A DNA stretch of 23,871 nucleotides from a virus, in the IMG/VR virus record IMGVR_UViG_3300042305_001769, positions 1-23,871 of that record. One strand, 5' to 3'. Every line of letters starts with the position of its first letter. The first letter of the stretch is position 1. Shown piece by piece: positions 194 to 16,958 of the stretch. The notes below the pieces were generated by a model. The model saw only the letters and a list, made by a program, of their open reading frames with translations. It had not been told where the DNA came from and made no database searches. Position numbers and translations under genes: made by a program.

Positions 194-2053
194 TTATAAG
201 TTTACTACTCTACCTTGAATGTCTTGATTTGGATATTTTACTTCAAATATAGAAGGATCTAATGAAGGATAAATCACATTGTTAATTGTTGCTGCTGAAA
301 TACTGTAAGCATAAGGTGAGTATCCTAAACTTTCTCCTACTAAATTAGTTATATTTATTGTTTTAACTGTTTGAACACCTTCTACTCTATCAAGTAATAC
401 ATAAAGATCTCTTAATACAATAGGTTCATTAATTTGCCATTTACTAATTGCAAAATAATCTTTTAATGCTGCTATACAATCAAATAATACTTGGTTACTA
501 TTATAGTTAGGTAATACAATAATATCAAAATTAACTCCAATATTAATTATAAAACCATCTTTAATATTAACAGTATCATTTACCATTCTATATTGCGATA
601 AATAAGTTGTAATGTTTTGTTTTAACGCAGGTGATGCTGTAGTTAATTGGTTGTTTATATTATAAGTTAAAACGTATAAATCTAATATAGAATTGGATTG
701 ACCAGCAGATATTGATTGTGCTTTAGTTGGTTCTATATACGCTTTAGATACAACACCGTATTTAGCAGGCATTGATAATGTTCTTACCAAATAATCATCT
801 TGTGTTACGTTACGTAATTGAGTTGCAAAATTAGCAGAAGCATTTTGTCTAATATCTTCAATTGTATCTCCATCACCACCACCACTAGCTGCTTCAGGAT
901 TAGTAACTGCTAATGAATTAAATATAGATTGAGCAGTTACAGCATTTAAGTTTGAATTTAAAAACTGAGTTCTTCCTTGTAAAGTTGTTAAACTATTAGC
1001 GGGAACATTTGAGGTAACTCCTCCACCTACTAAATATCTAACAGTTAAAGTAGTATTAGAAGGAGCAATACCATATGTTTTTGTAAAAATAAAGTTTGAA
1101 GGAGCATAGGCTGTTGTTAACTTCATTTGTTCAAAAGGTAAACCTAAACCAACATTATCTGGGTTAGGGATGATTTCTTCGTCTGTATTTGCTGCTGTAC
1201 CAGCACCAAATTGTAATTGTAAAGTAGTAGCACTTAAAAAACGAGAAGCAAATCTTCTTTGTACTTGTTTTAATTGTAATAAATAAGGTGTGTCTCCACT
1301 ATATTGAGATAAATAAGGATCGTTTATATTTGTATTTTTTATAGAATCATAAACAGCATCTTGAGCTAAGTAATCTACTTCATACCATGTATTTCCATCA
1401 GTATCAGTTACATCTAAAATACCTACAATTCTAGGAGAATTTATTGTTACGGTTGCAAACTGTTGAGGGACTCCAAAACTAAAGGTTGTAGTATTAATCT
1501 GAGAAGAGATTGATTTTCTTGTCTTTTTTAATAAATAATATGTTGGATTACCACCTGAAGTAGAGTAAATAGTTACTTCTGTTGGATCACCTGAACTTGA
1601 AACTGAAAAATCTACTGGGTCTTCAATTAGGAAAGATACACCAGGGTTAGTAGGTGAATTAACTTGTGCATTTTGATTTACAAATAAAGCATAACTAAAA
1701 TCAGGAACATAAGTTGAACCAGATAAAGTAGCAGGTACTTGTTGATAAAAATCAATATTTGTAGTAGCTACAGAAGTTACATTTGGTCTATAACCAAACA
1801 TATAAGCTAATTCATATAAATTATTTGTTTGACGAGCATATTGTAAATATGTTTCTTGGATTTGGTTATCCATGTAAAATGATAAAACATCACCTACATA
1901 GGCTGCCATTTCCATAAACATCATTCCTGGTGATGCTTCTGAGAAGTCGTTGTATGTTGTAGGGAAATAAGTTCTAGCATAGTCAATTAAACTAGCTCTT
2001 AATTCACTAAAATCTTTATTAATATATGTTATATTTCTTCTTTTTATGGCCAT
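194..2053 (-). CDS. gp6: Baseplate wedge subunit, T4 gp6-like
   Basis: 619 residues, close to the length of T4 gp6 (660). The N-terminus (RRNITYINKDFSELRASLIDYARTYFP in two pieces) followed by the segment F-S-E-A-S-P-G-M-M-F-M-E-M-A-A-Y-V-G-D-V-L-S-F-Y and then N-Q-I-Q-E-T-Y-L is the hallmark of gp6-like wedge proteins of T4-like phages; the central part fits the baseplate J-like family. In T4, gp6 dimers tie adjacent wedges into the baseplate ring. The gene overlaps the stop of the upstream gp25-like gene by one base (TAATG-type coupling), as expected for baseplate genes made in fixed ratios. High confidence in the family; subunit contacts are inferred from T4. Confidence 0.93.
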   Translation of the reverse strand: MAIKRRNITYINKDFSELRASLIDYARTYFPTTYNDFSEASPGMMFMEMAAYVGDVLSFYMDNQIQETYLQYARQTNNLYELAYMFGYRPNVTSVATTNIDFYQQVPATLSGSTYVPDFSYALFVNQNAQVNSPTNPGVSFLIEDPVDFSVSSSGDPTEVTIYSTSGGNPTYYLLKKTRKSISSQINTTTFSFGVPQQFATVTINSPRIVGILDVTDTDGNTWYEVDYLAQDAVYDSIKNTNINDPYLSQYSGDTPYLLQLKQVQRRFASRFLSATTLQLQFGAGTAANTDEEIIPNPDNVGLGLPFEQMKLTTAYAPSNFIFTKTYGIAPSNTTLTVRYLVGGGVTSNVPANSLTTLQGRTQFLNSNLNAVTAQSIFNSLAVTNPEAASGGGDGDTIEDIRQNASANFATQLRNVTQDDYLVRTLSMPAKYGVVSKAYIEPTKAQSISAGQSNSILDLYVLTYNINNQLTTASPALKQNITTYLSQYRMVNDTVNIKDGFIINIGVNFDIIVLPNYNSNQVLFDCIAALKDYFAISKWQINEPIVLRDLYVLLDRVEGVQTVKTINITNLVGESLGYSPYAYSISAATINNVIYPSLDPSIFEVKYPNQDIQGRVVNL

Positions 2054-2460
2054 TACGTAAATGCTAATTGTATTGTGTCTACTATACCAGTTTCTTTAAT
2101 ATTATATGTTAATTCTACTACTACTTGATTTTCATCAGGAATTGAATAAATATTCAAAGATGCTACTATCACATTAGGAAAATATGAACCTAACTGAAGC
2201 TGGATGTTTTCTTTTAACCCATCAAGATTATTAGTAGTAATTTGTTCAAAAATAAATTTTCTTAAATTACCACCAAATGTAGGATTTAAGTATCTTTCTG
2301 GTTGGTTTGTTAAGAAGAAATTAATTAAGTTATATTTAACTGATTCTTTTGTAGTATAAGTTGTTTTAAAAACAGCCGGAGCATTAAAAGGTAAACCTAT
2401 ACCAACACCAGTTCCTGGTTTGGTATCTATAGGAAATATTTTCTTTGCTCCAAATGCCAT
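2053..2460 (-). CDS. gp25: Baseplate wedge protein, GPW/gp25 family
   Basis: 135 residues, the usual size for gp25-like proteins (T4 gp25 is 132). The segment starting around residue 23 (LPFNAPAVFKTTYTTKESVK) followed by N-L-I-N-F-F-L-T-N-Q-P-E-R-Y-L-N-P-T-F-G-G-N-L is the characteristic family core: a region allowing short linear-array folding, the R-x-x-x-P-x-F-G turn, and a C-terminal beta pair ending in V-V-V-E-L-T-Y-N-I. gp25 nucleates the sheath-initiation part of the wedge. It sits between an unknown small protein and gp6, with one-base overlaps on both sides. Confidence 0.92.
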   Translation of the reverse strand: MAFGAKKIFPIDTKPGTGVGIGLPFNAPAVFKTTYTTKESVKYNLINFFLTNQPERYLNPTFGGNLRKFIFEQITTNNLDGLKENIQLQLGSYFPNVIVASLNIYSIPDENQVVVELTYNIKETGIVDTIQLAFT

Positions 2461-5337: not shown

Positions 5338-6045
5338 TTAAAATTTTATGTATCCTTGCTCAAGATAAAACGAGTATCCCTTTTTAAATATATCGTGAAG
5401 TTTATTTGTGATTTTTGTTATTTTAGGGGTTTTAGCATCTACTATTTCTCTAATATAAATGTAAAGTGCTTTTTTATTAAAAATATCTAAACTTTCTCTT
5501 TTTCTAAATAATTCTAAAACCGCATCTGCTATTTGAGCATCTTCCTCTTTAGGAAATAATTCAAAAATATTTTCAGTGCAGTGTTTAGTATATTCGTCTA
5601 TATAATAAGATAAACGTTCTATTGGTTGTGTATCTTCCATTTCATAAGAATGGTTTTCATCTTCATCTAATACATCTACATCAATAGTTTCAATTCTTTT
5701 CTTATAGTTTTTCTGGTTTGAAAGAATTAAATAACGTTTTGCAATTGTACCAAAATAAGAATATGCTTTAGCTCCTTTTTCTGGTTTGAATAAATGGATT
5801 TTACTTAATAAGAATGTGATTACCTCATGTTGTAAATCCTCGATATTATCTACTTCTGTATAATAAAATTTAAAAGTGTGGATAATATTTTCTGTTAATT
5901 TGAAGAAAGCGTAATGGATTTTTGAACGGTAGATTTCATTTTTTATTTCAAAATCATTACTACTGTTGTAAGCAATAATAGCATTTTCCGTTTCCTGGTT
6001 GAAGTATTGTACTCCTTTTTTCTTCTTTTTTACTACTTCTTCCAT
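5338..6045 (-). CDS. gp55: Late-transcription sigma factor, T4 gp55-like
   Basis: 235 residues (T4 gp55 is 185). The diagnostic part is around residues 60-110: Y-Y-T-E-V-D-N-I-E-D-L-Q-H-E-V-I-T-F-L-L-S-K-I-H-L-F-K-P-E-K-G followed by A-K-A-Y-S-Y-F-G-T-I-A-K-R-Y-L-I, which matches the sigma region-2-like core of gp55-type factors. The C-terminal part is helical and extended; T4 gp55 ends in a clamp-binding tail, and here the last residues are aromatic/hydrophobic (Y-S-F-Y-L-E-Q-G-Y-I-K-F), compatible with that role. It would direct host RNA polymerase to late promoters; candidate sites are the AATATTTATAA motifs in this window. It abuts the membrane-protein gene upstream with a one-base overlap. 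Confidence 0.82.
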   Translation of the reverse strand: MEEVVKKKKKGVQYFNQETENAIIAYNSSNDFEIKNEIYRSKIHYAFFKLTENIIHTFKFYYTEVDNIEDLQHEVITFLLSKIHLFKPEKGAKAYSYFGTIAKRYLILSNQKNYKKRIETIDVDVLDEDENHSYEMEDTQPIERLSYYIDEYTKHCTENIFELFPKEEDAQIADAVLELFRKRESLDIFNKKALYIYIREIVDAKTPKITKITNKLHDIFKKGYSFYLEQGYIKF

Positions 6046-6326
6046 TATTTAGTGATATTTTTAATGATAAAGGCATTTAATGCTGTTTGGATAATTTTAA
6101 TTTGTTCAAAGAAAAATCCTACTTCATCATCAGATTTAAAACTACCTTTAGCATCTACTTCCATCATTTTCTTTTCAGCCATTTCAATGGTGTCAGAAAT
6201 TTTGTTTAAATAAGACATATATCCTACTAGGATATCTTCTTGTTTTTCATTCTTTTTTAAGAGGTTAAAGGTCGTAAATCCAAGAGTCACGACCAGTATT
6301 AAAAGAATAATAATTGTTAATATCAT
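6045..6326 (-). CDS. Small membrane-anchored protein, unknown
   Basis: 93 residues. Residues 2-22 are a single hydrophobic segment (ILTIIILLILVVTLGFTTF), followed by K-K-N-E-K and a helical, acidic cytoplasmic-type domain with E-M-A-E-K-K-M-M-E-V-D and a C-terminal helix (F-F-F-E-Q-I-K-I-I-Q-T-A). Not recognised. Its start overlaps the end of the HD-domain gene by four bases, and its end overlaps the sigma gene by one, so HD, membrane protein and sigma factor are one translational unit. Confidence 0.75.
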   Translation of the reverse strand: MILTIIILLILVVTLGFTTFNLLKKNEKQEDILVGYMSYLNKISDTIEMAEKKMMEVDAKGSFKSDDEVGFFFEQIKIIQTALNAFIIKNITK

Positions 6327-7919: not shown

Positions 7920-8531
7920 TTATTTTACGTATTCGTAGAATTTTAATGTTTTTTCTTTTCTGTCATCTAAACCATGAGTACCACCATTAATTCTTTTAGT
8001 CAAAGCTAAAATAGCAGCATCATTAATACCTTGATCACAGATTGACCATAATTTGTTTTTGTCAAAGAAGAACATAGCTGATTCAAAAGCATAAGTTGTA
8101 GCAACTAAATCTGGGTTATCCATAATTTCTGGCTTGTTCAAGTATTCAGAAAAGGCTTTATAATTAGCTTTACCTGTTAATTGAAGGGCACCTCTACCTC
8201 TATACTTCCAACCATCACCTGATGCTTCAGGGCCATTACCCATTCTATCAGCATAAACACGGTTTGCAATCTTTTCAGGTTGACGAGCATAAGATTCTTC
8301 TAAAGTACCTGGGAAATATTTTCCAAAGATACCTTGTAAACCTTGAGCTGAGTAATTTAAATTTTCTGAAAATGCTTTAAAACCACCGGTTTCATGGGCT
8401 GTTTGTGCAAAAAAGTGAGCAGCTCTAACTGGAGTTAATTTGTAAAACTCCATAGCTTTTTTCATAGTACCCGGGCCGAAAGCGCCATCAGCACCAACTC
8501 CGATTTTTTCTTGTAAACTCTTTAAACTCAT
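7920..8531 (-). CDS. Endolysin, glycoside hydrolase family 19
   Basis: 203 residues, single GH19 (chitinase-like lysozyme) domain. Signature elements: A-A-H-F-F-A-Q-T-A-H-E-T-G-G-F around residues 37-51, with Glu47 as the likely general acid, and W-K-Y-R-G-R-G-A-L-Q-L-T-G-K-A-N-Y around 108-124, the substrate-groove motif. The first 30 residues (S-L-Q-E-K-I-G-V-G-A-D-G-A-F-G-P-G-T) resemble a short peptidoglycan-binding repeat. No signal peptide, so release needs a holin; a holin candidate is directly upstream, 6 bases away. Phage GH19 enzymes cleave the peptidoglycan glycan chain. Confidence 0.9.
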   Translation of the reverse strand: MSLKSLQEKIGVGADGAFGPGTMKKAMEFYKLTPVRAAHFFAQTAHETGGFKAFSENLNYSAQGLQGIFGKYFPGTLEESYARQPEKIANRVYADRMGNGPEASGDGWKYRGRGALQLTGKANYKAFSEYLNKPEIMDNPDLVATTYAFESAMFFFDKNKLWSICDQGINDAAILALTKRINGGTHGLDDRKEKTLKFYEYVK

Positions 8532-8537
8532 ACCTTA

Positions 8538-8774
8538 TTATTTTTCAGTTGTTTCGTTTGATTGTTTTTTACTCCAAATTTTATCTACTGATGATAATCC
8601 TAAGCAACCAAAAGCTAATAGAGCTACTGATTCTACTAAAATGTTAGAAGGAGCAACATGAGCTTCTGAGAATGAATTGTGGTACATAGTAACACAAAGT
8701 GCTAATGTACATAATAGGCCACATAGTCTTTTCATAGAGACTTTGCCTGTTTCGTCAAAAAATAATTGTTTCAT
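8538..8774 (-). CDS. Holin candidate
   Basis: 78 residues with two hydrophobic segments: about residues 17-33 (LCGLLCTLALCVTMYH) and 46-63 (LVESVALLAFGCLGLSS), a short polar loop, and a charged C-terminus (K-K-Q-S-N-E-T-T-E-K). Size, two membrane spans, hydrophilic tail and position immediately before the endolysin fit a class II-like holin. An AATATTTATAA motif 24 bases upstream could give the lysis pair its own late start. The family match is by architecture, not by a recognised motif. Confidence 0.7.
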   Translation of the reverse strand: MKQLFFDETGKVSMKRLCGLLCTLALCVTMYHNSFSEAHVAPSNILVESVALLAFGCLGLSSVDKIWSKKQSNETTEK

Positions 8775-8798: not shown

Positions 8799-8809
8799 TT
8801 ATAAATATT
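8799..8809 (-). promoter_or_regulatory. Candidate late promoter motif
   Basis: Exact sense-strand AATATTTATAA, about 24 bases upstream of the holin-candidate start at 8774. It overlaps the stop codon of the preceding secreted-protein gene. It could give the lysis genes their own late transcript. Confidence 0.45.
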
Positions 8810-9254
8810 AAAATTGTTTTGAAGTTTCCTTTAAAGATTCTTGTAGCGCTTTTGAGAACGCTTTCTTATTTAAAGGAACCTCATTGTTTTCAACATCTAA
8901 AAACATAGCAAAAATGAAAGTTTTTCTTACACCTTTACCTTTATAATAACCAGAGGGTAAACGAACAGAAGTTTCTACTATATAGTCTTTTCTTAACCAT
9001 TTAGTACCCATTATGTTTAAAATTGTTTGTGGAGAGTAAATACTATCTATATTTACTTGGATTGTAAAACCTAAAGAATCATCTAAAAAATATCCTTTAT
9101 TTACTAAAATTTCTTCCATTTCTTCTTTAACACCAAATGTAACATCTCTGTTATCAATTTTTTGAATATGTTGTTTATTAACTGCTTGAACATTAACTTT
9201 TACAGATTCAGGACTTAAAAAAGATAAAAACGAAAATAGAATACTTAATATCAT
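8808..9254 (-). CDS. Secreted protein, unknown
   Basis: 148 residues. The N-terminus (MILSILFSFLSFLSPES) looks like a short signal peptide, though it lacks positive residues at the very start. The mature part is mixed alpha/beta with V-N-V-Q-A-V-N-K-Q-H-I-Q-K-I and G-F-T-I-Q-V-N-I-D-S-I-Y-S-P, then a charged C-terminal helix. Its layout (a conserved beta segment, then a variable helix) faintly recalls the CsgG-like protein encoded upstream, but I cannot assign a family. It sits between the surface-protein genes and the holin candidate, in the same operon. Confidence 0.7.
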   Translation of the reverse strand: MILSILFSFLSFLSPESVKVNVQAVNKQHIQKIDNRDVTFGVKEEMEEILVNKGYFLDDSLGFTIQVNIDSIYSPQTILNIMGTKWLRKDYIVETSVRLPSGYYKGKGVRKTFIFAMFLDVENNEVPLNKKAFSKALQESLKETSKQF

Positions 9255-9256
9255 AC

Positions 9257-9267
9257 TTATAAATATT
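9257..9267 (-). promoter_or_regulatory. Candidate late promoter motif
   Basis: Exact sense-strand AATATTTATAA between the end of the GEVED/dockerin gene (stop at 9266-9268) and the ATG at 9254, leaving 2 bases before the ATG. Same element as at 2829, 8799 and 15458. Confidence 0.4.
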
Positions 9268-10336
9268 AATTTCTATAACCTGTTCTTATTAAATAATAAT
9301 TTGAATTTCCTTTATTTGCTATACCACTTAAAGTAATAGTTTGCACTCCTGGGTGTGTAGATTTTAGGTTTGAATTAGAAGTATTTATAGTACCCCATTC
9401 AGTAGGAGTAAAAATTCTATAGTTAGGTATCCCTGATTTCCAGGAACGGCCTATCATTTTCATATAAATTAAATAAATATCTGTTACATTTAAATTACCA
9501 TTATTATTAACATCCATTCTATAATAATCTTTAGCGTTAAAAGATTGTTGTAAAACTTTTTGATTAAATGATTGAGCATCACTTACAACAGGGTTAGAAA
9601 TAGTTAAAGTATTTATTCTTAATTCAAAATCATAAACATTAGCATCTCTAGTAGAAGATAAACTAAATTTCCCATTTGCATCTGTTACAAAATTACCTAA
9701 TAAAGTATAAGTATTATCTGTTTTTAATTTACTATATAAATCAATAGGTACACTAGATATTCCTACTCCCTCAGAGTTGTAAATATATCCTGTGTAACTA
9801 AAAGGATCAGTAGCACCAGCAATTACTGTTTTAAAATCAAAAGTATTACCATAAGCATAACTACCACAAATTACAGGTGAACCTGAATATTGCATTATAA
9901 ATCTCATATAAACAGTTCCGTTATAAACAGTAGTAGGTACTGTAAAAGTAGCAGTAACTGTTTTAGTACCTAACCAAGAATAATTTGAACTATGAACCAA
10001 CTCTCCAGCATCTGTTAAAACACCATTACCATTAAAATCAATCCATAATTTAAAATATTCCATATAATTACCATTAGTTTGGGCAGTATAGGTAATAGAA
10101 ATATTTTGAGCTGCTGTAATAGTAGGAACGGCATTTGAAGTATAATCATAATAACCTGCAGGACTACCACCTGAAGTATTAGAATATCCTGTACTACCAT
10201 TATATGTTTTACCATTTATAGTTACACTAGAAACATATTCACAACAAAAATTTGTTGGGTTACTAGCACAAAGAGGAGATTGAGCATAAATTTTTACACT
10301 AAATAAAAACAATAATATAAATAATAGATATCTCAT
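9266..10336 (-). CDS. Exported GEVED/dockerin-like surface protein
   Basis: 356 residues. Signal peptide 1-19 (hydrophobic, ending Y-A-Q). Residues about 85-170 fit the GEVED domain of bacterial adhesins (Y-F-K-L-W-I-D-F-N-G-N-G-V-L-T-D-A-G-E-L-V, then F-T-V-P and V-Y-M-R-F-I-M-Q-Y). Residues about 180-245 resemble a carboxypeptidase-regulatory/CnaB-like beta domain. Residues about 250-300 contain a dockerin-like calcium loop, M-D-V-N-N-N-G-N-L-N-V-T-D. The last 180 residues are paralogous to residues 185-350 of the T9SS-sorted protein encoded at 13108-15000. No T9SS sorting domain is seen at its own C-terminus. Overlaps the barrel gene by four bases. Confidence 0.78.
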   Translation of the reverse strand: MRYLLFILLFLFSVKIYAQSPLCASNPTNFCCEYVSSVTINGKTYNGSTGYSNTSGGSPAGYYDYTSNAVPTITAAQNISITYTAQTNGNYMEYFKLWIDFNGNGVLTDAGELVHSSNYSWLGTKTVTATFTVPTTVYNGTVYMRFIMQYSGSPVICGSYAYGNTFDFKTVIAGATDPFSYTGYIYNSEGVGISSVPIDLYSKLKTDNTYTLLGNFVTDANGKFSLSSTRDANVYDFELRINTLTISNPVVSDAQSFNQKVLQQSFNAKDYYRMDVNNNGNLNVTDIYLIYMKMIGRSWKSGIPNYRIFTPTEWGTINTSNSNLKSTHPGVQTITLSGIANKGNSNYYLIRTGYRN

Positions 10337-11772
10337 AATATAAGTTTAGCTCCTAAAAGTATTTGATAATTAATTACATTTTGACTAGCTATGTAAGTAG
10401 TACCTCCTGTTAAACCAAGACCAAACGTTTTAGTAAATTTATAATTGAAATTAAAAAACGGTACGATAATTGGTTTGGATTTGAACCAGTCCGCTGTATA
10501 ATACTTTGTATACGGTGAGTATACACCAGCAGCAATTATTGTCGCATCTAAATTTTTTAATAATTTTCCCTTATACATAAAACCTGAAATGGCTAAAGTA
10601 GTAATAAGAGGTTCTTTAAATAATTTTCCGTATACACCTGCTCCACCATAAATAAGAGTTAACTTTTTTAAACTATTTACTCTAATGTACATTGAAACAT
10701 TAGAACTAGATCCAGGCATAGTAGAAAATCCGCTTGAAACTAAATTAATATGTTTATTGCCTTTTGAATTAGTTCCAATCCAAGATCTTAAAAAGGTTAC
10801 ATTACCAATTTTAGCATTAACCATATAATCAGCAGAGATACCAATTGAGGAAGTTCCGTCTCCTTTTACACGAGTATAAGACATTGTACCTCTAGCATCT
10901 TGAGAACCGTCTTCTGTTTTTTGAAGACCTACAATATCACCTGTAAGTAGGATTGCTGGTTTTTGAGTTTCGGTTTTAGCTTTAGAGGTTGTTTTAGAAA
11001 CATTATTTGATGTAGATTTTTGTTGATCTGTTTTTTGATCTTTAATTTCCTCATTTGTTGGTTGGTTATCTTTTTTAGTAGTACCTCCACCACCTCCACC
11101 TCCACTACCACCACTACTACCTCCACCACCACTATTAGAGCCATTTTTATTATCTACAGGCGGCTGAGACGTTGAATTTCCGTCTTGAGTTGGTTGATCA
11201 CTACCTGATGAGCTTCCTCCTGAATTTGGAGTAGTTCCTCCAGTTCCATTGTCAGTGGATGAGCTTCCTGAATTTGATCCCTCTCCAGATACTTTAGTTT
11301 TTGGATTATCTGTAGAATTCTTTGATTGATCGGTTTTTGAATTTCCATTTCCTTCGTTTTTGTTGTCTAAGTTGGAACCTCTATCAACATTAGTTGTTAA
11401 ATTAGTACCACTACTATTAAGTGAAGAAAAACTAGTTACTACGTTTAAGTTTAAGACTGTATTAACAATATTAGTTGTTAAGTTTGTTGTTGTTGTATTT
11501 GTTGTTGATACTAATATTCCCTGACAGGGTTTACTTGAGTACTGAGCATAAACAGTACTTATCCAGTTGTCAAAGGTTCCGTTTTGAATTTCGTTATAAG
11601 TGAATGCTTTTGTTTGTCCGTAATATGCTACTATAACAGGAGTAGACATATCATAAGTTATAAATTTTAAATTACGAGTACAAGGATCTGTATATGAATA
11701 CATGTAGGACTGTCCGTTTAAAGACAATCCTAATAGTAAAAATAAGAGTAATATTTTAGTTTTTAAATACAC
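10333..11772 (-). CDS. Outer-membrane barrel-like protein with long linker
   Basis: 479 residues in three parts. A signal peptide (1-21) is followed by a small extracytoplasmic domain (about 22-95) with two cysteines (31 and 83) that could form a disulfide. Residues about 96-272 are low complexity, rich in Ser, Thr, Asn, Gly, Lys and Asp, with a near-pure glycine run at 215-230. Residues about 273-479 alternate hydrophobic and polar residues in many short strands (I-I-V-P-F-F-N-F-N-Y-K-F, then F-G-L-G-L-T-G-G) and end I-L-L-G-A-K-L-I-L, as in outer-membrane beta-barrels. I infer a barrel or barrel-like domain; the exact family is not recognised. The glycine-coding triplet run (about 11083-11130) could vary in length by slippage. 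Confidence 0.7.
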   Translation of the reverse strand: MYLKTKILLLFLLLGLSLNGQSYMYSYTDPCTRNLKFITYDMSTPVIVAYYGQTKAFTYNEIQNGTFDNWISTVYAQYSSKPCQGILVSTTNTTTTNLTTNIVNTVLNLNVVTSFSSLNSSGTNLTTNVDRGSNLDNKNEGNGNSKTDQSKNSTDNPKTKVSGEGSNSGSSSTDNGTGGTTPNSGGSSSGSDQPTQDGNSTSQPPVDNKNGSNSGGGGSSGGSGGGGGGGTTKKDNQPTNEEIKDQKTDQQKSTSNNVSKTTSKAKTETQKPAILLTGDIVGLQKTEDGSQDARGTMSYTRVKGDGTSSIGISADYMVNAKIGNVTFLRSWIGTNSKGNKHINLVSSGFSTMPGSSSNVSMYIRVNSLKKLTLIYGGAGVYGKLFKEPLITTLAISGFMYKGKLLKNLDATIIAAGVYSPYTKYYTADWFKSKPIIVPFFNFNYKFTKTFGLGLTGGTTYIASQNVINYQILLGAKLIL

Positions 11773-12442
11773 CGGCTTTTATGAGGTTTTCAACAACCTT
11801 AGTAGTAGCGGTCTCTAATGATTTACGAGTTGCTTTACCTACGGTACTTTGAGAAAACTTCATGTCAATGTTTTTTAAGAAGGATTCACCTATTTTTTGT
11901 GATTCACCTTCTCCTGAGCCAATATAAATTTGGCCTGTTTTAGCGTCTACAAATCTTACTTGTAAACGTATAAATGTTGTTACAACTACTGTTGATTTGC
12001 CTTTTTCTACTGTTTCATCTTCATCAACAGCAAAATCCGCTACGGTAGCATAAACAAAGTATTGAGCTGCTTTAATTTTACCCTTACCATCAATTGGTTC
12101 TTCAAAAACACCTTTTTTAGATGCTTTAAATTGGGTTACCATTCTTTCTTTTATTTCTGATTTTTCTTCAGTAAATATAAAACGGTTTGTTTCATCTAAA
12201 TAATCTAACACTGATTCAGCAAATCCTAAACCTACATTTTTTTCTTGTAAACTAGGATATAAAGCAAATACTTTAGTTAAATCAACATTAACTACTTGAA
12301 CATTATATTTGATTGAATCTGTGTAATTAGATACAGTGAAAATGTCTTTCTTTTCAATAACATCTTTTTCAGTTGTGGTCTTCATAGAGCCACAACCGAA
12401 AAGTGTTAATAAAAATAAAAATGTAAAAATATTTTTTACCAT
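11756..12442 (-). CDS. CsgG-like outer-membrane lipoprotein
   Basis: 228 residues. A lipoprotein signal (F-L-L-T-L-F-G-C, Cys17) is followed by Gly-Ser, without the acidic surface-export residues seen in other lipoproteins here, which suits a periplasm-facing protein. The body has features of the CsgG family: A-A-Q-Y-F-V-Y-A-T-V-A-D-F, a beta segment V-V-V-T-T-F-I-R-L-Q-V-R-F-V-D-A-K-T-G-Q-I, and a C-terminal helix T-R-K-S-L-E-T-A-T-T-K-V-V-E-N-L. In curli systems CsgG oligomerises into an outer-membrane export channel. E. coli CsgG is 277 residues, so this is a compact version. Overlaps its neighbours by 17 and 7 bases. Confidence 0.72.
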   Translation of the reverse strand: MVKNIFTFLFLLTLFGCGSMKTTTEKDVIEKKDIFTVSNYTDSIKYNVQVVNVDLTKVFALYPSLQEKNVGLGFAESVLDYLDETNRFIFTEEKSEIKERMVTQFKASKKGVFEEPIDGKGKIKAAQYFVYATVADFAVDEDETVEKGKSTVVVTTFIRLQVRFVDAKTGQIYIGSGEGESQKIGESFLKNIDMKFSQSTVGKATRKSLETATTKVVENLIKAGVFKN

Positions 12443-12759
12443 GGGTCTTCTTCTTTAGCAGGTTCAGTTTTAGCTGGGGCTGCAGCTGGTTTTTCAACTA
12501 CTTTTTCTTTAATAATAGTTGTAGTACCACCTTCTTGTTTTGTTTGTTGTTTGTTTTCTTGGTTTTGTTGAACGTTAATCACAACAGGAGCAGGAGCAGC
12601 TGTTTGTTCTGTTTTAACTTCTTCTTTTGGCTCTTCATGTCCGCCAAATACTTGAACACCTAACCATGTTCCGCCACCTGCAATTAAAGTTGTTAAAGTA
12701 CCAATAACGGTCTTTTTCAAACCTGACCAAGTACCTTCGTTTGTTGTTTCTTCTGACAT
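12436..12759 (-). CDS. Membrane protein with Pro/Glu/Lys-rich tail
   Basis: 107 residues starting MSEETTNEGTWSGLKK. A longer frame extends to 12819, but the ATG at 12759 lies one base after the upstream stop and matches the coupling used throughout the operon. Residues about 14-36 form one hydrophobic, glycine-rich segment (V-I-G-T-L-T-T-L-I-A-G-G-G-T-W-L). The rest is a TonB-like flexible stretch with E-E-P-K-E-E-V-K, A-A-P-A-P-V-V-I, a Gln/Lys-rich middle and K-P-A-A-A-P-A-K-T-E-P-A-K-E-E, ending D-P-W. It could be periplasm-spanning (spanin- or TonB-like) or holin-like; no firm family. Confidence 0.65.
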   Translation of the reverse strand: MSEETTNEGTWSGLKKTVIGTLTTLIAGGGTWLGVQVFGGHEEPKEEVKTEQTAAPAPVVINVQQNQENKQQTKQEGGTTTIIKEKVVEKPAAAPAKTEPAKEEDPW

Positions 12760-12760
12760 A

Positions 12761-13108
12761 TTATTCGTTATTTGATATATTTGATGTATTTGATAATGTT
12801 GTTCCGTCTTCCTCGTCAACCTTTTGAACTAGCATTTTATCTCTGTCTTCTGAGTTGAACCAATAATCTACAACCTTATTTAAGTTACCTACGAAGGCAC
12901 CTAATAATATTAATAACATTTCCTTCCAAGATTCTTGAATAGCAATTCCAAAGAATACTGCTGAGTTAATTCCAAGAATAATAAAGAAGAATAAAAATAG
13001 CACAATTAAAGTAATCTTCCAGCGATTAACTTGCATTTGTTGTAACATGTAGTAGAAACGATTTTTATCTTCTACTTTAACATACTCTGATTTGAATAGA
13101 TTTTTCAT
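12761..13108 (-). CDS. Two-span membrane protein, holin-like
   Basis: 115 residues. The N-terminal 30 residues are charged, followed by a hydrophobic span at about 31-55 (ITLIVLFLFFFIILGI) and a second at about 64-77 (W-K-E-M-L-L-I-L-L-G-A-F-V-G), then N-L-N-K-V-V-D-Y-W-F-N-S-E-D-R-D-K and a polar Ser/Asn tail. The pattern of a G-x-F-x-G span followed by an aromatic-x-F-x-S plus charged tail resembles small phage holin-like proteins whose last helix ends Y-F-G-S-S. A second holin or antiholin, or part of the export machinery, are both possible. Confidence 0.6.
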   Translation of the reverse strand: MKNLFKSEYVKVEDKNRFYYMLQQMQVNRWKITLIVLFLFFFIILGINSAVFFGIAIQESWKEMLLILLGAFVGNLNKVVDYWFNSEDRDKMLVQKVDEEDGTTLSNTSNISNNE

Positions 13109-15000
13109 TATTTGTTTATTAAAATTTTGTTTGTAGCAAATTTACCATTGTTAACTAATGAAGCATAATAGAAACCGTTTTCTAATGATGCATTTACTGT
13201 GTATACATATTGGCCTTTAGGCATATTTTGATTTAAAACTTGAGCAACTTTTCTACCAAACATGTCAAAGATAGCTAATTCAGTTTCACCTTCTTCTAAT
13301 AAATTAAAAGCAATTCTCATAGTACCTGGATTTGGGTTAGGAGTAGCCAATAAACAGAATTCAGTTGATTTAACTGTTGGTTTATAAAACACTCTATCTA
13401 CTTGAACAATACCCATTGTAGGAGTAATATTCATGTCTTTAGATACGTTATCACCCACGTATTTAGCGCCAGTCCATAATGCTGCTGTACCCCATTGATC
13501 TTGAGGTTTTTTAGCTATAAATTGTAAAGTAAATACTTGTTCGCCATCGTTAAATAAGCTAGAATTTGAAATATCAAATCCACCCCAAGAAATAACATTG
13601 TTAGTAGGATTCACAAATGAAATCCATTTCATTGCTTTTTCAGTATTTTCTATTTTTTTAAATTCAAGTAAAGAGGTATCGTATTTAATATCTAATTGTA
13701 AAGCACCTAATGATTTACCTTTAGTCAAAACTTTAACTGGTACATTAACTAAATTACCTTCTTCAACTTTAACTTTAGGTAAGTTAATTTCAATTGTTTC
13801 AACTATATTATCATATTGAACTGTATTGTCAATTATATATTTGTTAGCATTAGATGGGTTATTGATTTTAATTGGGATTAAACGAGCCATTTTAAAACCA
13901 GTTACGTTAGCATCACCTTTTACAGAAACGTATCTTAAAATTGAATCAGCACCTCCATTAATATAATGAGTGAAATTAGTTACACCTGAAATAGTTGAAG
14001 TATAGTTTGTATTAGATCCATTAATAGTAGCATATTCAGAAGGAGTAAAGAATAAAACATCTTTAACACCATTTACCCATGAAGTAAATCTACCACCAAT
14101 TCTACCAAATACACCATAAGCGTCAGCAATTGTAATATTATTACTACCGTTTACATCCATTGTGTAATAATCAAATCCTGTTGGGCTGTATTGTCCTAAA
14201 ACAGTTTGGTTAATCTTTTGAGCATCAGCAGTTGAAATTACATTACCAACAGTCATTGTATCACCTTTAACTGCAATACGAGTATCCCAATATGTTGTAT
14301 CTAATATTTCTTCAAAATTAAATTTACCACTATTATCAGTAACATATGATTTTACTTGAACCCAAGTAGAACCTGTTTTTTCTTTCTTTTCTAAAGATAA
14401 AACTAAGTTTTTAGCACCTGTACCAGCTGTAGTTAAGAAAGTACCTTTGAATTTTAATTTTTGTTGGATGAATTTACCACCATAAGAGTAAACAGTTAAT
14501 GTAGTATCGTTACCATAGTTAGTAGCAGCTAAATTATTAAATGTAGTTGTACCTGTAATTTTCATGGTTTTGATACTATCTAAAGCATTCCAAGTAGCGG
14601 CTGAAGCGTGTGTTAAAGTAATTTCAACAGCAGCACCATCCGAATATGAGAAAGTTGAGTTAGTGCCTGTATAGACCATAGTAACTGTAATATTGCCTTC
14701 GGTAGTATTAGTTACATATTGCATATACTGATCTGTAGAACTATATTTTAAAGCAACAGTAGGAGCAGCACCATTGAAAGCGTCTTTATCGTACCATACA
14801 CGAAATTGCATACCTGTGATTTTAGCACTAGTATTATTTCTGTAGTAAAGATTTGCTTTAGTAACACCAATGTTTGAAGGAGCTACTGTGTAGTTTGTGT
14901 CTACGATTACCCATCTTCCTGTACCAGGAGCTGGTGGGGTTGTTTGACCAAAAGTAATAGTTGCAAGTAAGAATGCAAGAATTAAGAATAGTTGTTTCAT
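13108..15000 (-). CDS. T9SS-sorted cohesin/dockerin-like surface protein
   Basis: 630 residues. Signal peptide 1-19 (ends T-F-G-Q). Residues about 30-170: beta-sandwich resembling cohesin. About 185-250: regulatory-like beta domain. About 253-303: dockerin-like region with N-V-I-S-T-A-D-A-Q-K-I-N-Q-T-V-L-G and the calcium loop M-D-V-N-G-S-N-N-I-T-I-A-D. About 400-535: cohesin-like domain (V-N-V-P-V-K-V, then L-G-A-L-Q-L-D-I-K-Y-D-T-S-L-L-E-F). About 553-630: a type A T9SS C-terminal sorting domain with P-N-P-N-P-G-T, L-A-I-F-D-M-F-G-R-K-V, G-F-Y-Y-A-S-L and a final K-I-L-I-N-K. Such domains direct cargo across the Bacteroidota outer membrane and are removed on attachment. It is the second gene of the operon and overlaps the first by four bases. 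Confidence 0.85.
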   Translation of the reverse strand: MKQLFLILAFLLATITFGQTTPPAPGTGRWVIVDTNYTVAPSNIGVTKANLYYRNNTSAKITGMQFRVWYDKDAFNGAAPTVALKYSSTDQYMQYVTNTTEGNITVTMVYTGTNSTFSYSDGAAVEITLTHASAATWNALDSIKTMKITGTTTFNNLAATNYGNDTTLTVYSYGGKFIQQKLKFKGTFLTTAGTGAKNLVLSLEKKEKTGSTWVQVKSYVTDNSGKFNFEEILDTTYWDTRIAVKGDTMTVGNVISTADAQKINQTVLGQYSPTGFDYYTMDVNGSNNITIADAYGVFGRIGGRFTSWVNGVKDVLFFTPSEYATINGSNTNYTSTISGVTNFTHYINGGADSILRYVSVKGDANVTGFKMARLIPIKINNPSNANKYIIDNTVQYDNIVETIEINLPKVKVEEGNLVNVPVKVLTKGKSLGALQLDIKYDTSLLEFKKIENTEKAMKWISFVNPTNNVISWGGFDISNSSLFNDGEQVFTLQFIAKKPQDQWGTAALWTGAKYVGDNVSKDMNITPTMGIVQVDRVFYKPTVKSTEFCLLATPNPNPGTMRIAFNLLEEGETELAIFDMFGRKVAQVLNQNMPKGQYVYTVNASLENGFYYASLVNNGKFATNKILINK

Positions 15001-15452
15001 TTTGAGTTGTTTATTATTTGTTGTTTAGTATGTTGTATTAGCCAATCTTCCACATTAGATAACTTGTTGATTAACCCTAATTCATAATAATAACAAAAAT
15101 ATTCTTCTTGATTCGGTGTGAGGATAATTTCCCTTTTTCTAAGGTAAAGGTGAAAACTTTCGTGTACTAGTACTGCTGCTAAATTATTAATTGAATTTAA
15201 TTTAACATCTTTAACTGCCACGTATATTACACCTGTACTATCCGTTAACTCACAAGAAGAAAACTCGCTTACCCAAAAACTTATTGAACTACAAACACTA
15301 TCAAGTAACTGGTACTTAGGTAGATCTGTTTGCTTAATTAATTGTATTGCTGAATCTATTTTTAAATCCCATCCATCTCCTGCTTTATCTATTTTAATTT
15401 GACTAAAAAGTGATAAAGGGTAGATAATTAGAAACAAACAGACTAACCGCAT
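14997..15452 (-). CDS. Exported HExxH metallopeptidase-like protein
   Basis: 151 residues. Signal peptide 1-18 (C-L-F-L-I-I-Y-P-L-S-L-F-S-Q). The mature protein carries a zincin motif H-E-S-F-H at residues 97-101, in a helix context L-A-A-V-L-V-H-E-S-F-H-L-Y-L, with glutamates at 116, 117 and 124 as possible third ligands. Two cysteines (54 and 67) could pair in the periplasm. The zincin fold is supported only by the motif and helix; the family is not recognised, and a non-catalytic role is possible. First gene of the exported-protein operon, 5 bases after a candidate late promoter. Confidence 0.68.
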   Translation of the reverse strand: MRLVCLFLIIYPLSLFSQIKIDKAGDGWDLKIDSAIQLIKQTDLPKYQLLDSVCSSISFWVSEFSSCELTDSTGVIYVAVKDVKLNSINNLAAVLVHESFHLYLRKREIILTPNQEEYFCYYYELGLINKLSNVEDWLIQHTKQQIINNSK

Positions 15453-15468: not shown

Positions 15469-15493
15469 GCAAAAAGAAAAAGAATGCTTTTAG

Positions 15494-15564
15494 TTACCCC
15501 CCAAGGATTCGAACCTCGATTCAGTGGACCAAAACCACTTGTCCTGCCTTTAGACGAGAGGGCA
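15494..15564 (-). tRNA. tRNA-Gln (UUG)
   Basis: Cloverleaf found by hand: acceptor TGCCCTC pairs with GGGGGTA (one G-T, one T-G), anticodon arm AGTGG-TTTTGGT-CCACT with anticodon TTG, T arm CGAGG-TTCGAAT-CCTTG, discriminator A. No 3' CCA in the DNA. Decodes CAA. Confidence 0.93.
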
Positions 15565-15571
15565 ATTTATG

Positions 15572-15643
15572 TAGCCCCTACGGGAATCGAACCCGTCTTT
15601 CTAGGATGAAAACCTAACGTCCTAACCGATAGACGAAAGGGCC
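15572..15643 (-). tRNA. tRNA-Glu (UUC)
   Basis: Acceptor GGCCCTT pairs with AGGGGCT, anticodon arm TTAGG-TTTTCAT-CCTAG with anticodon TTC, T arm ACGGG-TTCGATT-CCCGT, discriminator A, no encoded CCA. Decodes GAA. Seven bases separate it from tRNA-Gln. Confidence 0.93.
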
Positions 15644-15647
15644 ATTT

Positions 15648-15735
15648 TGGCGGAAAGTCAGGGATTCGAACCCCGGTTAGCTTTCACTAAAACAGTTTTC
15701 AAGACTGCCGCATTCAACCGCTCTGCCAACTTTCC
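15648..15735 (-). tRNA. tRNA-Ser (UGA)
   Basis: Class II tRNA: acceptor GGAAAGT pairs with ACTTTCC, anticodon arm GCAGT-CTTGAAA-ACTGT with anticodon TGA, long variable arm (TTAG...CTAA), T arm with GGTTCGAATCC, discriminator G. Unlike the other four, CCA directly follows the discriminator in the DNA. Decodes UCA. Confidence 0.93.
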
Positions 15736-15741
15736 GTTTTT

Positions 15742-15813
15742 GCTTCTCCGTTCACTCCGCTCTGTGAGACTACAGTGACTGGTTGTTTATACTAATAGAT
15801 CTACCAGAGAAGC
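15742..15813. ncRNA. Structured tRNA-sized element between tRNAs
   Basis: A 72-base segment with a perfect 7-bp closing stem (GCTTCTC / GAGAAGC) and two internal arms readable by eye: TGGT...ACCA and GTCACT...AGTGAAC with one bulge. Size and closing stem equal those of a tRNA, yet neither strand has a T-loop consensus or a good anticodon arm. It could be a degenerate tRNA, a small structured RNA or a processing element. An alternative pairing, AATAGAT with ATCTATT, involves the flank up to about 15830. Confidence 0.35.
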
Positions 15814-15838
15814 TTGCCTCAATCTATTAATATCCGGG

Positions 15839-15911
15839 AGCCACCTGTAGGACTTGAACCCACAACCTACTGAGTACAAATCAGTAGCTCTACCAATTGA
15901 GCTAAGGTGGC
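15839..15911 (-). tRNA. tRNA-Thr (UGU)
   Basis: Acceptor GCCACCT pairs with AGGTGGC, D arm with AGCTCAATTGGTAGAGC, anticodon arm ACTGA-TTTGTAC-TCAGT with anticodon TGT, T arm TGTGG-GTTCAAGT-CCTACA, discriminator T, no encoded CCA. Decodes ACA. Confidence 0.93.
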
Positions 15912-15913
15912 TT

Positions 15914-15970
15914 AAACTTTCTTGCTAAACTCCGAGCTTACGTTCTCGAAGAACCTGGGAAAGGTAGTTT
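15914..15970. other. Second structured tRNA spacer
   Basis: Spacer between tRNA-Thr and tRNA-Leu with an inner inverted repeat GTTCT-CGA-AGAAC (15942-15954) and weak outer pairing (AAACT with AGTTT, CTTTC with GAAAG). No gene or tRNA is recognised in it. Confidence 0.3.
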
Positions 15971-16000
15971 TTATTTTTAATGTCTTTAAGAACTTATTTG

Positions 16001-16086
16001 TACTATTGGCCGGAATCGAACCGGCATGATCGTTTAGGATCATTGGATTTTAAGTCCAACGCGTCTACCTGTTCCGCCACAATAGC
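16001..16086 (-). tRNA. tRNA-Leu (UAA)
   Basis: Class II tRNA, 86 bases: acceptor GCTATTG pairs with CAATAGT (G-T at the end), anticodon arm TTGGA-CTTAAAA-TCCAA with anticodon TAA, long variable arm TGATCCTAAACGATCAT, T arm GCCGG-TTCGATT-CCGGC, discriminator A, no encoded CCA. Decodes UUA. Confidence 0.93.
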
Positions 16087-16310: not shown

Positions 16311-16958
16311 TTATTCAAAAATTACTTTCATTTCTTTTTCTCTCAATTCACTTTTACCTGCATCACTATTAAATAAAACATTTATAAAAATAGAGGCAGT
16401 ATCACCAATCATTGATTTATCTAAGAAAAAGTTTTGTGTTGGAATATAATTATACTTAGAATAACTACCTAATAATGTAGGAGAATAAGCACAAGTTAAA
16501 CACATGTATTTAGTTATCTGGTAGCCTGCTAAATTATAAAAACTAGTCATTTTACTTAATTGAGTAATAGAATATGATGTATCACCAATTGGTACAGGTG
16601 TATTTAATCCTTTATCTGAATACCAACCTAAGTAACTGTACATTGGTGTTTTAAATTTTAAAGTATCAAACACAATCCAATAATCAGAATCATATCTTGT
16701 TTCAATTAAAGGAACATTATTTATAACATAATGAGGATTTAATTCAGCTACCTCGCCTCTAATTGTAAAATAATGTAATCCAATGTATTTAACGCGCCAA
16801 TAACCATCAGCATGTAATTTAGCGCCCGGACTTGAGAATGTGTCAATATAAAACGTAGACTTACATTCTCCGTCTAAACACGGATATGGGTAAACGTTTT
16901 CTTTTTGACAGCTTATTATTACGAGAACGCTTAGTATTAGAGGAATTAGTTTTTTCAT
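16311..16958 (-). CDS. Surface lipoprotein, unknown
   Basis: 215 residues. Lipoprotein signal MKKLIPLILSVLVIISC (Cys17) followed by Q-K-E-N. In Bacteroidota, residues just after the cysteine with Gln/Lys plus acidic residues act as a lipoprotein export signal to the cell surface, so surface exposure is likely. The mature part is beta-rich with many aromatics (Y-W-R-V-K-Y-I-G-L-H-Y-F-T-I-R-G-E-V) and two cysteine pairs (C-L-D-G-E-C and C-L-T-C). No family recognised. Its first about 98 bases overlap another small lipoprotein frame. Confidence 0.72.
   Translation of the reverse strand: MKKLIPLILSVLVIISCQKENVYPYPCLDGECKSTFYIDTFSSPGAKLHADGYWRVKYIGLHYFTIRGEVAELNPHYVINNVPLIETRYDSDYWIVFDTLKFKTPMYSYLGWYSDKGLNTPVPIGDTSYSITQLSKMTSFYNLAGYQITKYMCLTCAYSPTLLGSYSKYNYIPTQNFFLDKSMIGDTASIFINVLFNSDAGKSELREKEMKVIFE

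Follow-up and report, generated by a model that had tools for sequence, protein, structure and literature searches.

Several described systems share one or another feature with the locus analysed here. Genes for CsgG/CsgF, known from curli (type VIII secretion), have been found in pelagimyophages, where they gave rise to the idea of adhesion for "sibling capture" (PMC7029224), and in methylophage Melnitz, for which a role in lysis was suggested (PMC9004378). Phage-encoded cargo of the type IX secretion system (T9SS) is known from Cryophage, where it was described as unique; the cargo varies and in one instance is a PA14 protein (PMC7468147). In crAss-like gut phages, open reading frames (ORFs) with T9SS tails neighbour those for BACON proteins (PMC6949934). 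The GEVED domain was defined from CshA-type fibrillar adhesins (PMC10952558). Here we describe an operon of eight genes, A to H, in a viral DNA of 23,871 nucleotides (IMG/VR record IMGVR_UViG_3300042305_001769; hereafter the window), a 23.9-kb fragment that is complete as deposited. The operon combines a cohesin scaffold bearing a T9SS tail with an exchangeable head protein and a set of envelope proteins, and is probably a mobile adhesin cassette for surface display that infected Bacteroidota express, with docking, T9SS anchoring and glycan adhesion.

One scaffold with a T9SS tail and one exchangeable head

All eight ORFs lie on the minus strand in sequence from 15452 to 8808, with neighbours overlapping or separated by at most 11 bp (Table 1), as the initial annotation of the window had described. 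Its assignment of Sec or lipoprotein signals to six of the products and of membrane spans to the other two agrees with hydropathy. Strongly hydrophobic N-termini (best 12-residue mean ≥2.4, taken as the criterion for an export signal) are present in A, B, E, F, G, and H, and comparable ones in just three of the 25 other window genes checked (6045-6326, 8538-8774, and 16311-16958); span-like segments are found in C and D, that of D falling under the 19-residue cut-off for a membrane span. The cohesin, T9SS, and GEVED parts that it named all exceed the Pfam cut-offs, and its CsgG part, which does not, is backed by an AlphaFold model and by a cellular homologue. The surface programme was thus recognised from the start, but the X/dockerin-like feet, the second cohesin, the swapping of heads, and the spread across phage lineages were overlooked.

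Scaffold B consists of a signal peptide, a first cohesin, an X/dockerin-like foot, a second cohesin, and a T9SS type A sorting tail. Pfam Cohesin (PF00963) matches B in two stretches at 49.1 bits against a cut-off of 24.1, the N-terminal copy exceeds the cut-off in several relatives, and Foldseek relates the cohesin region, as modelled by AlphaFold, to solved cellulosomal cohesins (target TM-score about 0.7). The tail scores 33.4 bits with Por_Secre_tail (PF18962; cut-off 27) and 35 with TIGR04183 (cut-off 23), and matches the tails of solved T9SS substrates in the PDB (8glk and 8glj). In each of the 16 long genomes examined there is one T9SS-tail gene, and it is always B; likewise, in whole-genome searches, above-cut-off cohesins are confined to B. 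Two further cohesin matches (G015:43978 and G009:54639) were rejected as weak and below cut-off, the former being the major capsid protein. In Flavobacterium phage immuto, B is divided into two genes, gp014 (first part and foot) and gp015 (cohesin and tail, that is, the anchor), each with a separate signal peptide. This split between foot and second cohesin is what would be expected if foot and cohesin associate, and we suppose that they dock within the cassette and that B resides on the surface of the infected cell.

The foot is shared by B and G, which are homologous over about 165 residues (E = 2e-26); a profile built from the feet of second proteins, as we call G and its counterparts, retrieves the foot region of B (E = 2e-30). 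In it, a dockerin-like stretch comes after one that is transthyretin-like (X-like). Among all PDB sequences, the foot profile gave only three matches with E < 1, all of them X-module-dockerin chains of Clostridium thermocellum CipA, each weak by itself (E = 0.1-0.6). Furthermore, Dockerin_1 gave matches in 12 phage genomes, and in 11 of these its best match falls on a foot. The weight appears to lie in the coherence of these weak sequence matches rather than in any single value. Within the genomes searched, the foot is restricted to B and the second protein, and every uncut genome or locus has two feet, one on the scaffold and one on a single second protein; loci with a single foot appear to be cut by contig ends. 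A host origin of the foot was considered and rejected: among about 295 genomes of the class of one Bacteroidetes metagenome-assembled genome (MAG), strong matches occur only on the phage contig of that MAG, and weak ones in six genomes. Outside the cassette, an open frame of 1569 residues also contains a weak dockerin-like match (G010:C1:89403-89549).

The head of the second protein belongs to one of several classes: GEVED (37 loci), C-type lectin (23), a domain that we could not name, in proteins of about 400 residues (22), and PA14 (8). Pfam E values are 1e-16 for Lectin_C, 6e-6 for PA14, and about 1e-13 for GEVED. In the lectin, PA14, and unnamed classes the head is inserted within the X-like stretch, whereas GEVED precedes it. 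On a tree of E and B, head type changed at least 13 times, against 12 changes on the tree of B alone and 16 on that of E alone, the foot columns of B being included in these trees. Closely related loci carry different heads, as do L024 (unnamed) and L071 (lectin), and three classes occur among the close relatives L065, L077, L019, and L021. The DNA is correspondingly mosaic, identity being mostly about 80-90% upstream, about 40-60% over the head, and about 80-100% over the foot and the downstream gene, a pattern clearest in the pairs L024/L071 and L065/L077. Within classes, the heads are under purifying selection, with median ratios of nonsynonymous to synonymous substitution rates (dN/dS) of 0.07-0.15, or 0.28 for PA14 (nine pairs). 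From the mosaics, this selection, and the lack of a reverse transcriptase it follows that heads are replaced, not hypermutated; a diversity-generating retroelement acting on the C-type lectin was rejected, no RVT_1 domain being found in 17 genomes. Nor do the heads look like mimics derived from tail fibres: above-cut-off Lectin_C and GEVED are confined to the operon protein, and the tail genes of these phages yielded neither domain at that level. At one locus (L006:4631-5428), a 265-residue head protein has an in-frame internal deletion of about 60 residues in its C-type lectin domain, either real decay or an assembly artefact.

Among the envelope partners, E is a lipoprotein whose Pfam CsgG match in the window is sub-threshold (0.015). 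Its AlphaFold model (pLDDT 73) nevertheless retrieves CsgG chains as the top 21 of 21 PDB matches (best E 9e-7, TM-score about 0.35-0.5), its first viral match is a phage protein annotated as CsgG, and an Ignavibacteriales homologue with 35% identity (L119), encoded in a cellular operon, passes the Pfam CsgG cut-off; these results place E in the CsgG superfamily. The lipobox is present in most relatives and absent from immuto and a distant branch, and E ranks with the most strongly constrained of the eight genes (median dN/dS 0.10). No CsgF, CsgE, or CsgA/B domain was found in the eight proteins with Pfam or NCBIfam. In cells, relatives of E are encoded in one operon together with a CHASE2-guanylate cyclase protein (L119:9986-16022) or a caspase-domain protein (L120:7393-10567), a little-described kind of CsgG-like cluster.

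Protein A has no above-cut-off family match in Pfam or NCBIfam and is probably a zinc peptidase, since it has an invariant HExxH followed by glutamates (H97, E98, H101, E116, E117, and E124 in 20 relatives). Relatives of C share the motif ...LLLGAF.....DYWF. The start of D is placed at 12759 (MSEE...), where relatives concur, the ORF start at 12819 being too far upstream. F comprises a signal peptide, a small N-terminal domain, a Ser/Gly/Asn-rich linker, and a beta-rich, barrel-like C-terminus. H may be a periplasmic partner of E, judging from its weak profile similarity to that protein. At the sequence level, the PDB gave no useful match to E, H, A, F, or the unnamed head. In a divergent branch, an H-like gene of lipoprotein type heads the operon (L107:4369-4869), and its product has a sub-threshold resemblance to Lipoprotein_16 and to TraT, a surface exclusion protein.

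Table 1 Features of the operon and its surroundings in the window
Feature	Position	Strand	Basis or remarks
A, secreted putative zinc peptidase	14997..15452	-	signal-like N-terminus; invariant HExxH and later glutamates
B, proposed surface scaffold/anchor, 630 residues	13108..15000	-	Pfam, NCBIfam, AlphaFold, Foldseek, PDB tail matches
B cohesin 1, about residues 28-146	14563..14919	-	second Cohesin stretch in Pfam search
B X/dockerin-like foot, residues 196-365	13906..14415	-	homology to G foot; profile matches
B EF-hand-like loop DVNGSNNITIAD	14157-14122	-	within B foot
B cohesin 2, residues 403-533	13402..13794	-	Pfam Cohesin 8.6e-13; Foldseek to solved cohesins
B T9SS C-terminal sorting tail, residues 554-628	13117..13341	-	Por_Secre_tail 5.6e-8; TIGR04183 1e-8
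C, inner-membrane protein, about two spans, holin-like look	12761..13108	-	hydropathy
D, small protein, one span-like segment, Pro/Ala/Gln-rich tail ending EEDPW	12436..12759	-	
E, CsgG-superfamily outer-membrane lipoprotein	11756..12442	-	lipobox LTLFGC; AlphaFold model; cellular homologue
F, secreted protein	10333..11772	-	signal-like N-terminus; C-terminus alignment
G, exchangeable head protein	9266..10336	-	signal peptide, then GEVED head and X/dockerin-like foot; T9SS tail absent
G GEVED domain, residues 94-169	9830..10057	-	Pfam PF20009 1.2e-13
G X/dockerin-like foot, residues 194-356, loop DVNNNGNLNVTD	9269..9757	-	homology; profile matches
H, small secreted protein	8808..9254	-	conserved; weak profile similarity to E
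Small membrane protein, holin candidate	8538-8774	-	neighbour, outside conserved cassette
GH19-type endolysin	7920-8531	-	neighbour, outside conserved cassette
Terminator-like hairpin	7896-7876	-	after endolysin
Five tRNA genes	15493..16086	-	directly upstream of operon
gp6-like baseplate gene	194-2053		
gp25-like baseplate gene	2053-2460		

Conservation and spread across two phage lineages

Searches of IMG/VR with B and G as queries yielded 112 loci, from which 58 distinct sets were retained for tree building after removal of near-copies. E, D, and F are each present in about 103 of the fetched loci (103 for D), H in 87, and A in 82; per-locus counts of B and G are inflated by cross-matching of the shared foot. 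The initial annotation had proposed looking for the gene order in other Bacteroidota phages, and it recurs in about 100 loci, including that of cultured immuto. Given this recurrence and pairwise dN/dS medians of about 0.1-0.3 (0.13-0.28 for envelope genes other than E), the cluster is not a product of chance.

By its baseplate genes, the window phage groups with T4-like myoviruses, and its nearest cultured relative is immuto (46% identity in gp6). There the order is gp013 (lectin head), gp014, gp015, gp016 (D), gp017 (E), gp018 (F), and gp019 (H), so that the head gene stands first rather than after F as in the window, and the operon adjoins replication genes; no helpful literature on immuto was found, and the Baltic phage paper mentions neither that phage nor virion mass spectrometry. 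Genes for glycosyltransferases and for sugar modification are numerous in the immuto genome at 49-60 kb (L114/L115), possibly another layer of surface alteration. In the window, a further lipoprotein-like gene (16311-16958, minus strand; lipobox ISCQ) lies upstream of the tRNA genes, and a homologue of its product (39% identity) is encoded near a GIY-YIG gene in immuto (L115, about 26298). A divergent branch (L107-L113) has a similar order, with a B of about 21% identity that keeps the T9SS tail and a second protein whose GEVED head sits on its own dockerin-like foot.

The cassette is carried by phages with two unrelated types of virion. T4-like terminase, portal, and capsid genes were found in four genomes (G001, G002, G004, and G012), a crAss-like terminase and capsid in G005 and G013, a crAss-like terminase in G010, and a crAss-like capsid in G015; G016 gave neither a T4-like nor a crAss-like match. 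Cassettes of the crAss-like group, the remaining members of which were assigned by synteny and tree, form one clade (support 100, B tree), consistent with a single transfer of the scaffold. However, some heads are 94-97% identical between the T4-like and crAss-like groups, as compared to 71-81% for B, which indicates that heads crossed later and more than once.

Neither E, the T9SS tail, nor the foot was found in two long T4-like relatives (L168, 155 kb, and L187, 166 kb), in Microcystis phage Mel-JY01, or in a 484-kb phage, and the cassette is therefore accessory. With closely related baseplate genes and no cassette, L168 and L187 offer natural comparison strains for studies of function. The T9SS tail, the immuto host (Flavobacterium sp. 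LMO8), and two MAG bins point to Bacteroidota, presumably aquatic ones, as hosts. In a 254-kb phage contig binned in a Bacteroidetes MAG (L117), an extra gene for a secreted protein of 273 residues (13501-14322) separates the head gene of the cassette from H, and the contig has another T9SS-tail gene elsewhere (G028:C291:133097-133330).

A proposed surface adhesin and its alternatives

Docking, surface location, export route, and purpose are what we infer from these parts. Scaffold B would enter the periplasm via Sec and be exported and anchored on the surface by the host T9SS, where it would present its cohesins. The second protein, whichever head it bears, would dock by its constant foot onto a cohesin of B, and the foot of B itself may link scaffolds into chains. 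As the second protein lacks a T9SS tail, we propose a phage-encoded export or assembly path, which would comprise the CsgG-fold lipoprotein E, the barrel-like F, periplasmic H, and the inner-membrane proteins C and D, with A as a putative peptidase for maturation. Infected cells would then adhere to the glycans of particles or of cells around them, so that new hosts are close by at the time of virion release. More tentatively, and with somewhat less than even confidence, the whole could be seen as a miniature cellulosome-like viral appendage, the glycan-binding tips of which are swapped between T4-like and crAss-like phages to hold hosts or matrix near the bursting cell.

Certain observations weigh against this picture. 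The dockerin-like stretch of the foot has only one canonical EF-hand-like loop, the first being degenerate; Dockerin_1 matches stay below the Pfam cut-off in all 16 genomes; the AlphaFold model is of poor quality across the foot of B; and cohesin and dockerin domains occur outside cellulosomes with no known pairing. E is shorter than CsgG and its role as a pore is putative; for F, because no match was found among PDB sequences, the outer-membrane barrel is one that we infer. The absence of the cassette from the two long T4-like relatives counts on the same side.

Superinfection exclusion is a serious rival, although we consider it less likely. In this case, the surface scaffold would mask or crowd receptors or bind incoming phages, and heads would be swapped in the course of an arms race. 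The quick exchange of heads among close relatives and among unrelated phages that apparently share hosts would fit such a role, and outer-membrane lipoproteins are established exclusion factors elsewhere (TraT and Llp of T5). However, there are just four head classes, each under purifying selection within the class, the tail genes show no above-cut-off Lectin_C or GEVED that would suggest receptor mimicry, and the models of PADLOC gave no match at E 0.01, a result on which a known anti-phage defence system was rejected as well. Adhesion is the most likely purpose, ahead of exclusion, because C-type lectin, PA14, and GEVED heads are characteristic of adhesins and glycan-binding proteins, are shared by phages whatever their type of virion, and have no counterpart in tail genes. 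A role in lysis, in which E, the holin-like C and D, and F would weaken the envelope together with holin and endolysin and the scaffold would be secondary, is improbable. It draws on the appearance of C, on the position of the window operon directly upstream of a holin candidate and endolysin with no terminator between, and on the lysis role proposed for CsgGF of Melnitz (PMC9004378). The initial annotation saw no terminator until 7871, and the hairpin listed in Table 1 is the sole terminator-like one on the minus strand below 15452 in a scan down to 5000. Yet its further claim, that the programme is transcribed with the lysis genes, does not extend beyond particular lineages: of 40 distinct loci, only 23 have an endolysin within the 3 kb downstream; the crAss-like group lacks one there, and in immuto 28 kb separate operon and endolysin. 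Thus, the surface and secretion programme is real and conserved, but shared transcription with lysis genes does not characterise it; moreover, lysis would not account for the anchor with its T9SS tail, the cohesins and feet, or the exchange of sugar-binding heads.

Polysaccharide-handling systems are the typical setting of PA14, C-type lectin, and cohesin/dockerin-like modules, and Flavobacteria live on algal polysaccharides. The heads might accordingly hold polysaccharides or particles for host enzymes and so bring in more carbon during infection, and T9SS-tailed glycoside hydrolases are encoded by Cryophage (PMC7468147). We give this explanation little credence, as the cassette has no glycoside hydrolase or other catalytic domain except the putative peptidase. 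Least probable is a place on the virion, with scaffold and heads acting in the manner of mucus-binding capsid Ig-domains, although glycan-binding virion decorations are known in other phages. Sec and T9SS signals take the proteins out of the cytoplasm, where virions assemble, and the same cassette with its heads serves two unrelated virion types; the coating of released virions, suggested in the initial annotation, is unlikely on the same grounds. That annotation had also named two findings that would overturn it, ordinary virion proteins and a cluster not conserved in related phages; the cluster is conserved, and none of the parts matches virion families, including head and tail families, in PHROGs or Pfam.

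Comparison with known systems

In mainly open-access literature, with few subscription journals and preprints covered, no account of this operon, or of any cohesin/dockerin-like scaffold in a phage, came to light. The parts belong to known families, and docking, should it be confirmed, follows the cellulosome principle; new with respect to the literature searched are the combination and the setting. If the proposed function holds, lytic phages rebuild the cell surface with an adhesin of exchangeable modules before lysis, "sibling capture", put forward for pelagimyophages on thinner evidence, becomes directly testable in immuto and Flavobacterium sp. LMO8, cohesin-dockerin style assembly extends to viruses, and the host T9SS is used by a conserved phage cassette. 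The cassette and heads common to T4-like and crAss-like phages attest to gene exchange between very different virion types, the carriers of which presumably meet in the same hosts.

Like cellulosome scaffoldins, the cassette has cohesins on a scaffold that would be cell-anchored and an X-like plus dockerin-like foot on both partner and scaffold. It differs in having sugar-binding heads instead of enzymes, no plant-cell-wall enzyme domain being found on the foot-bearing proteins, only GEVED, Lectin_C, PA14, or unnamed heads; in its T9SS anchor; in being phage-encoded; and in a dockerin match that is below cut-off with one canonical loop, in a system described here from sequence and structural models. 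With pelagimyophages and Melnitz it shares a phage-encoded CsgG-superfamily protein in a conserved operon, although no sequence match of E to those phages was found in the collection searched; in contrast to them, it has no recognised CsgF or amyloid subunit, adds the T9SS anchor, cohesin scaffold, and exchangeable head, and occurs in phages of Bacteroidota. T9SS sorting tails on phage proteins and variable cargo, in one case PA14, are common to the cassette, Cryophage, and crAss-like phages, but there they belong to single cargo genes or enzymes, whereas here one conserved anchor is accompanied by envelope partners and by a proposed non-covalent exchange of heads. Finally, CshA-type fibrillar adhesins (PMC10952558) likewise contain GEVED and shuffle adhesin domains in a modular fashion, but each is one long covalent adhesin, whereas the head of the phage cassette is a separate secreted protein.

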